From Actinomycetes bacterium (GTDB taxonomy: Bacteria > Actinomycetota > Acidimicrobiia > Acidimicrobiales > RAAP-2), in assembly GCA_021791895.1 (NCBI GenBank), contig JAJYVS010000006.1, positions 27,045 through 91,044 of the forward strand: 64,000 nt of DNA. Reading direction: 5' to 3'. A program made the position numbers and the translations under genes. This document shows positions 49,029 through 53,036 of the stretch, one piece after another. The notes below the pieces were generated by a model, which searched no databases, had not been told where the DNA came from, and saw only the letters and a list, made by a program, of their open reading frames with translations. Each line of letters opens with the position of its first letter. Within the stretch, counting starts at the first letter, position 1.

Positions 49029-49927
49029 GCCCGGAACAGCGCTCGTGCTCGGCGGTCGTCGTCGACTACGACACCGGGTCGTACCTGTCCGAATGCCTGC
49101 GCTCGCTGAACGACGAGGGGGTCGCCCGGCCGGTGGTGGTGGAGAACGGCGACGCCGACGACGCCCGAGCCGCGCTCGGGGCCGCCGGTTTCGAGCGGAC
49201 CCCGCTGATCGCTACCGGCCGGAATCTCGGCTACGGGGCCGGGGCCAACCGGGGGGTCGCCGCCACCGGGGAGTCCGAGTACCTGCTCATCTGCAACGCC
49301 GATCTGGCGCTCCACGCCGGGGCGTTGGCGGCCCTGGTCTCGGCACTCGACGACCATCCGGACTGGGCGGTGGTCGGCCCCCGGATCCTCACCACCGAGG
49401 GCGTCCCCTACCCCTCGGCCCGGCTCTTCCCCGGACCGGTGGTGGCCGCCGGCCATGCCCTGTTCGGCGCGGTGTTCCCGAACAACGCGTTCACCCGCCG
49501 CTACCGGACCCCGTACCTCCAGGGGCAGTCGGCCGAGGTTGACTGGGTCTCGGGCTCGTGCTTCCTCGCCCGCCGCAGCGCCCTGGAGCAGGTGGGTGGG
49601 TTCGACGAGCGGTACTTCATGTTCGCCGAGGACATGGATCTGTGCTGGCGGTTGGGCCGGGCCGGCTGGAGGGTGGGATTCGAGCCGTCGGCCGAGGTCA
49701 CCCACCACGAGGGGGTCTCGCGCCAGCACCATCCCTACAAGATGGTGCTGGCCCACCACCTCTCGGCCCTGCGCTTCGCCACCGGCACCCTGGTCGGCCC
49801 CCGCCGCGTCCTCCTGCCCGCCGTCGCCCTCGGCCTCGCCGCACGCCTGGGGGCGGTCTGGTCGGCGACCTTTCTGCGGCGGGCCCGGGCGCGGCGCCGG
49901 ACACCGATCGGGCCCCGGCCCGCGTAG
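49025..49927 (+). CDS. GT2 family glycosyltransferase (rhamnosyltransferase-like)
   Basis: NLGYGAGANRGVA, LLICNADLALHAGAL, DWVSGSCFLARRSALEQVGGFDERYFMFAEDMDLCWRL. Confidence 0.9.
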   Translation: MSPEQRSCSAVVVDYDTGSYLSECLRSLNDEGVARPVVVENGDADDARAALGAAGFERTPLIATGRNLGYGAGANRGVAATGESEYLLICNADLALHAGALAALVSALDDHPDWAVVGPRILTTEGVPYPSARLFPGPVVAAGHALFGAVFPNNAFTRRYRTPYLQGQSAEVDWVSGSCFLARRSALEQVGGFDERYFMFAEDMDLCWRLGRAGWRVGFEPSAEVTHHEGVSRQHHPYKMVLAHHLSALRFATGTLVGPRRVLLPAVALGLAARLGAVWSATFLRRARARRRTPIGPRPA

Positions 49928-49950
49928 GATCGGTGCGGGCTCGGTACGGG

Positions 49951-50170
49951 TCTGTGGTTGAAAGTCGAGGCCAGTCGCAGGCGAAACGACCCACGTAAGG
50001 CAACTCTTGGTTGCTGAGCATGGTGCGATTTAGACGTAAGTCCTGCCCGTCGCACCCGACGGTCGGGTGATGACGGAGACGGGGTGACGCGAGCCGTGGT
50101 CGGGACCGAAGGGCCGAAGGCCGCCGGTCCCGGGGCCGCCAGCCCTGCAGCAGGCGAGTGTGGGGGCAAA
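49951..50170 (+). ncRNA. candidate structured RNA / 5' leader upstream of secA
   Basis: Successive helices: GCAGG(49977-49981)/CCTGC(50042-50046) enclosing GGCAAC(49999-50004)/GTTGCT(50010-50015); CACCCGA-CGG-TCGGGTG (50053-50069) extended by CCGTC/GACGG; GGGACCG(50102-50108)/CGGTCCC(50125-50131) with inner GGCC/GGCC; no convincing CDS. Confidence 0.6.
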
Positions 50171-50249
50171 GACCAGGTCAGCCGTACCCAGCCCACGACC
50201 TCCGCCCGGCCCGATCGGGCGAGAACCCCCAGGTAGGATCGACAAAAGC

Positions 50250-53022
<2,773 letters not shown>

Positions 53023-53036
<14 letters not shown>

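Follow-up and report, generated by a model that had tools for sequence, protein, structure and literature searches.

The 322-nt gap in front of secA in the analyzed DNA (a window of 64,000 nucleotides from a genome of the family Acidimicrobiaceae; all positions are those of the window) is assigned here to the raiA (ModT) RNA, a known and widespread class of folded bacterial RNA. The gap extends from the end of a GT2 glycosyltransferase ORF (49927) to the secA ATG (50250), and the ORF list contains no ORF-like gene between the two. In a cmscan search, Rfam family RF03072 (raiA) spans 49941-50190 on the + strand with the complete model (1-209), at 155.1 bits compared to the gathering score of 101.3, that is, 54 bits over it (E 9.6e-41); no other Rfam model is above threshold within the window, and the genome contains a single raiA RNA. 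A preliminary description of this DNA had offered an RNA of the raiA-motif class as one hypothesis, with an Infernal scan against Rfam and covariation among homologues as the checks; the end-to-end match to RF03072, along with homologues that covary as the fold requires, bears this hypothesis out. We consider it highly probable that this raiA/ModT RNA gene encodes a separate trans-acting noncoding RNA that has its own promoter, performs a role of the clostridial type and works without HPF. The features of the locus, with the nomenclature of the helices taken from the published structure (PMC11751092), are the following:

49941-50190, + strand: raiA (ModT) RNA, full Rfam model 1-209 (RF03072 match; covariation in 30 homologues)
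49925-49930, + strand: TAGGAT, putative -10 element of the promoter serving the RNA; it overlaps the stop codon of the GT2 ORF (predicted from positional conservation of TAnnnT)
49941-49949, + strand: 5' strand of P1a, partner 50182-50190 (7 pairs of the P1a/P1b helix changed on both sides)
49952-49958, + strand: 5' strand of P1b/P1c, partners 50179-50181 and 50172-50174 (structure layout and alignment)
49964-49990, + strand: P3 stem-loop, with P3a GUCG/CGAC and P3b GCC/GGC (layout and alignment)
49973-49979, + strand: P3 loop, one half of pk-1, pairing with 50024-50030
49991-49994, + strand: 5' strand of P4, partner 50160-50163 (invariant in 30 sequences)
49999-50015, + strand: P5 hairpin GGCAAC-UCUUG-GUUGCU (4 pairs changed on both sides)
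50021-50022, + strand: UG half of pk-2, partner CA at 50167-50168 (kept in 28-30 of 30 sequences)
50024-50030, + strand: second half of pk-1, partner 49973-49979 (99.0% of cells paired)
50042-50046, + strand: 5' strand of P6, CCUGC, partner GCAGG at 50150-50154 (invariant)
50047-50076, + strand: P7 hairpin (basal pairs covary strongly)
50080-50147, + strand: P8 hairpin, proximal pairs 50080-50083/50144-50147, distal GGGACCG/CGGUCCC 50102-50108/50125-50131
50234-50239, + strand: putative -10 element TAGGAT of the promoter of secA itself, 16 nt before the ATG (predicted from TAnnnT conservation)
50250-53036, + strand: secA, the next gene downstream of the RNA (ORF; SecA_DEAD match at G000:C34:77306-78439)

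The fold is supported by the comparison of 30 homologues from the family, which were aligned with MAFFT and scored on a structure built from the cryo-EM description (PMC11751092) and the Rfam model. Standard pairs occupy 92.6% of the cells, compared to 34-44% when the partner is slid by 1-3 columns; both partners have changed in 25 pairs, and the score for covariation reaches 0.265 vs 0.116 in shuffled alignments. Covariation is seen in P1a and P5, at the base of both P7 and P8, and in a single pair of pk-1; P3, P4 and P6 are invariant and hence give no covariation signal. Pairing is maintained in 97-100% of the cells in P1 and P3-P6 and in 92.5% at the base of P8, where all 4 proximal pairs are changed on both sides; the distal part of P8 differs in length among the relatives. 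In P7, the basal pairs covary but the outer part drifts, with 67% of the cells paired overall in this alignment. RNAalifold gave a nested fold with other, invariant pairings in place of P1b/P1c and P3; it was rejected because each of its pairs is either unchanged or altered on a single side, and the published structure accounts for more.

Both pseudoknots of the published structure are preserved. The 7 pairs of pk-1, between the P3 loop and the pk-loop, are formed in 99.0% of the cells, and one of them shows a double change from A-U to G-C in 12 of the 30 sequences. The 2 pairs of pk-2, between the pk-loop and J4-1c, are formed in 96.7% of the cells and are nearly invariant, hence no covariation signal; the bases involved (U82/G83 with C181/A182) are kept. 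Nearly all bases that make tertiary contacts in the cryo-EM structure are retained at equivalent positions in the 30 homologues, including U19-G20-N21-A22-A23, A28, A44-A46, A57, A58, G179, A183, A184, G190 and G191. In particular, the A-minor adenines A57/A58 are conserved, and the discontinuous GNRA turn is kept, with variation within the motif confined to the N position (A or C); among the named contact bases, only this N and A43 vary freely.

Most of the helices that had been noticed earlier are parts of this conserved fold. The complementary segments listed in the preliminary description are present where it placed them: the GGCAAC/GTTGCT hairpin corresponds to P5, the CACCCGA/TCGGGTG stem together with its CCGTC/GACGG extension to P7, and the GGGACCG/CGGTCCC stem to distal P8. 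Two of its assignments have to be revised. The supposed closure of a domain by GCAGG and CCTGC does not hold, as CCTGC (50042-50046) pairs instead with a second GCAGG (50150-50154) to form P6, and the first GCAGG (49977-49981) falls in P3b and pk-1. The 12-nt palindrome GCCCGATCGGGC (50209-50220), which had been listed last among the complementary segments, lies outside the RNA and the conserved fold. This palindrome is found at 3 of the 156 loci including that of the window, the others being confined to a 97%-identical sister species, and CCGATCGG is not enriched within the window (8 occurrences vs 5.7 expected). Given this restriction to the sister species and the lack of enrichment, we discarded GCCCGATCGGGC as an operator or terminator.

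That the gap codes for a small protein, or is unconstrained GC-rich sequence folding by chance, is conceivable insofar as the folding energy barely beats that of shuffled sequence: the signal is modest, with z = -1.15 for 331 nt and -2.26 for the exact RNA, and folding energy alone is weak evidence. The covariation is decisive and refutes folding by chance, with compensatory changes far above the control. As for coding, a forward frame is open over the whole RNA in at most 1 of the 30 homologues, and therefore the RNA is non-coding; the lengths of the homologues (223-268 nt) are not multiples of three. The earlier remark that the gap holds no convincing ORF is thus substantiated, and a coding or chance origin can be dismissed almost entirely.

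Conserved promoter-like motifs are located before both the RNA and secA. A TAnnnT motif lies 15-19 nt before position 1 of the RNA in all 49 named relatives (3.5 expected from shuffled sequence), with 0-1 occurrences in the neighbouring bands. The same motif precedes the start codon of secA by 15-17 nt in 26 of the 26 relatives in which secA directly follows the RNA (1.9 expected). These -10 assignments rest on position-specific conservation of the motif; a sigma-70 scan recognized no promoter and no -35 element. The RNA thus seems to have its own promoter, and on the simplest reading the secA mRNA is transcribed from a second one. With a putative promoter right before the start codon (50234-50250 in the window, and in the 26 relatives), the secA mRNA is apparently leaderless or nearly so.

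These motifs bear directly on the possibility that the RNA acts in cis on secA, as a leader, riboswitch or attenuator that is co-transcribed with this gene and controls its expression through the fold. Such a role would fit the proximity of the two, since in 110 of the 136 RNA-bearing genomes of the family the 3' end of the RNA is 23-180 nt from the SecA domain and hpf does not intervene. Furthermore, no terminator was found between the RNA and secA, so that read-through into secA is possible, and Rfam still labels RF03072 'Cis-reg; riboswitch', which counts against the explanation that we prefer. However, in 26 of 26 relatives secA has a conserved TAnnnT of its own between the RNA and the ATG, about 16 nt from the latter, and therefore a separate RNA is favoured. 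Moreover, hpf is inserted between the RNA and secA in the hpf-bearing relatives, a 963-aa ORF separates them in one genome (G010), many raiA RNAs outside the order are not beside the same gene, and the clostridial homologues are complemented in trans (PMC11706538). On balance, a leader of secA appears unlikely, and a separate RNA remains the preferred reading.

Within the Acidimicrobiaceae, actinobacteria of acid soils, the RNA is far more common than hpf. Among the 150 sampled genomes of the family, the raiA RNA is found in 136, SecA in 147 and hpf (Ribosomal_S30AE) in about 24-26. Loci with hpf are arranged RNA-hpf-secA, as seen in the 22 genomes in which a single contig carries all three; in the hpf-less loci the RNA directly precedes secA, at 23-180 nt from the SecA domain in 110 genomes and at 2.9 kb in a single exception. 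In this exception (G010), the ORF between the raiA RNA and secA (L124:537-3428, - strand; G010:C64) encodes a protein in which InlB-like repeats, a candidate reading by eye, are abundant. The nearest named relative of the window genome is a metagenome-assembled Acidimicrobiaceae bacterium with a 97% identical SecA. In the genus of the window, all 7 genomes (completeness 87-95%) contain the RNA, and none yields hpf when searched with PF02482, with PF16321 for the C-terminal domain or with a profile built on HPF sequences of the family itself. The RNA and secA are 71-80 nt apart on one contig in all 7 and therefore the local loss of hpf is not an assembly gap. Within the limits of this 87-95% completeness, the absence of the hibernation factor gene that had been remarked on earlier extends beyond the locus, as hpf was detected neither elsewhere in the genome nor in the 7 genomes of the genus.

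Several weaker or unusual matches were encountered in the family. Weak PF02482 matches in G008, G012, G013, G070 and G079 were considered as candidates for the hpf of the locus and rejected; the one examined, in G013, is a longer protein of about 475 aa (L121:1124-2551, - strand; G013:C11) that combines a SnoaL-like domain, a degenerate S30AE domain and two tandem S30AE C-terminal domains. This protein has a RafH-like or HPF-like architecture, PF16321 also matches G008, G012, G024, G042, G064, G070 and G079, and the SnoaL/S30AE protein is absent from the genus to which the window belongs. Partial raiA RNA matches under the gathering score (G067:C111:15-95 and G111:C133:5633-5744) might be second or decayed copies. 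In one relative without the raiA RNA, a Transposase-2 RNA (RF03015; L113:834-900) is located upstream of secA.

The wider comparison points to a loss of hpf from a locus that formerly contained it. Of 397 Actinomycetota genomes sampled, 138 contain the RNA and 341 contain hpf; outside the class of the window, all 130 RNA-bearing genomes also encode hpf, often but not always adjoining the RNA. In one genome of the same order (L125, G277:C55), the order is comFC-RNA-hpf-LuxR-secA, and in another (L126, G224:C36) it is RNA-LuxR-secA, with hpf not detected in this genome, possibly a second loss. In these two genomes, which represent other families of the order, the gene that separates secA from the RNA (or from hpf) encodes a LuxR-type response regulator. 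The ancestral arrangement in the order is reconstructed as comFC-RNA-hpf-(LuxR)-secA. In a SecA tree, which was built by a quick method and labelled at the level of the locus (presence of hpf in the 3 kb upstream of secA), the window belongs to a clade of 30 rows with an SH-aLRT support of 99, of which 27 have the RNA and no hpf, and 3 lack both; the RNA-bearing rows of the tree require at least 3 changes of the local hpf state. The pattern in the clade fits a single loss of hpf, after which the RNA was kept over a long time.

The same history raises the question of whether the RNA is a former cis-regulator of hpf/raiA, as the motif was first interpreted, that was left behind after the loss and is now decaying or functionless. 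Both the ancestral gene order, as seen in G277, and the presence of hpf in 130 of the 130 RNA-bearing genomes sampled outside the class are compatible with such an origin, but the covariation, the pseudoknots and the key bases are intact over many hpf-less species, and complementation in trans in clostridia rules out a purely cis role (PMC11706538). We regard a relic as very unlikely. Since hpf was lost and the RNA kept in a well-supported clade, the function of the RNA is probably independent of HPF, and the retention argues against the view that the RNA works for HPF, either in cis on its gene or in trans on the protein. We have not found clade-wide retention of the RNA after the loss of hpf stated in the openly licensed literature, and claim no priority.

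Given the conserved fold and the separate putative promoter, a trans-acting noncoding RNA of the ModT kind would be the best reading of the locus. Under this scenario, a separate structured noncoding RNA of about 250 nt would be encoded just upstream of secA and transcribed from a promoter of its own, would fold into the compact raiA architecture with two pseudoknots, and would act in trans as its clostridial counterparts do. The role of the clostridial class in timing the passage from growth to stationary phase, extrapolated here from spore-forming Firmicutes, would then apply. In this clade, the RNA would work without HPF, the hpf gene having once been located between the RNA and secA and subsequently lost. 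The usual position of the raiA RNA beside the ribosome-hibernation gene from which it takes its name has been a lead on its function, and the clade is a natural experiment in which hpf is gone and the RNA is kept with its full structure. A bolder, improbable proposal is that in this large acidophilic actinobacterial clade the raiA RNA replaces HPF in the stationary-phase protection of ribosomes and translation, or performs this function without the partner protein; if so, the RNA, not the protein, would be the retained element of an ancient locus.

Compared with known systems, the RNA described here is an addition to a known class, the presence of which in the phylum has been reported before (PMC11706538). 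It shares with the raiA motif (RF03072) the full-length match, helices P1 and P3-P8, pk-1 and pk-2, the GNRA-like turn and the conserved adenines, but differs in adjoining secA rather than raiA/hpf, in the undetectable hpf and in the clade-specific P7 and P8 arms. According to Soares et al. (as cited in PMC11706538), frequent neighbours of the raiA RNA are comFC upstream (74%) and raiA/hpf downstream (66%); here, the GT2 gene and secA flank the RNA instead. This neighbourhood is typical of the raiA RNA and not defining, and the ModT RNA of Clostridioides difficile, which belongs to the same family, is likewise not followed by raiA (PMC11706538). In C. difficile, ModT acts in trans with a role in the growth transition; this clostridial homologue, found in a spore-forming host, is very abundant and stable, has its own transcription unit, and controls, partly via cyclic di-GMP, when growth gives way to stationary phase (PMC11706538). 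Cryo-EM shows that the raiA RNA is a compact monomer with two pseudoknots (PMC11751092; PMC12286853). The RNA of C. acetobutylicum (PMC11751092; 9ELY in PMC12286853) differs from the present one in that A43 is a G in most of the Acidimicrobiaceae, in the unlike P7 and P8 sequences, and in the E-loop of P8, which is not identified in the window RNA; the two share the tertiary-contact nucleotides at equivalent positions.
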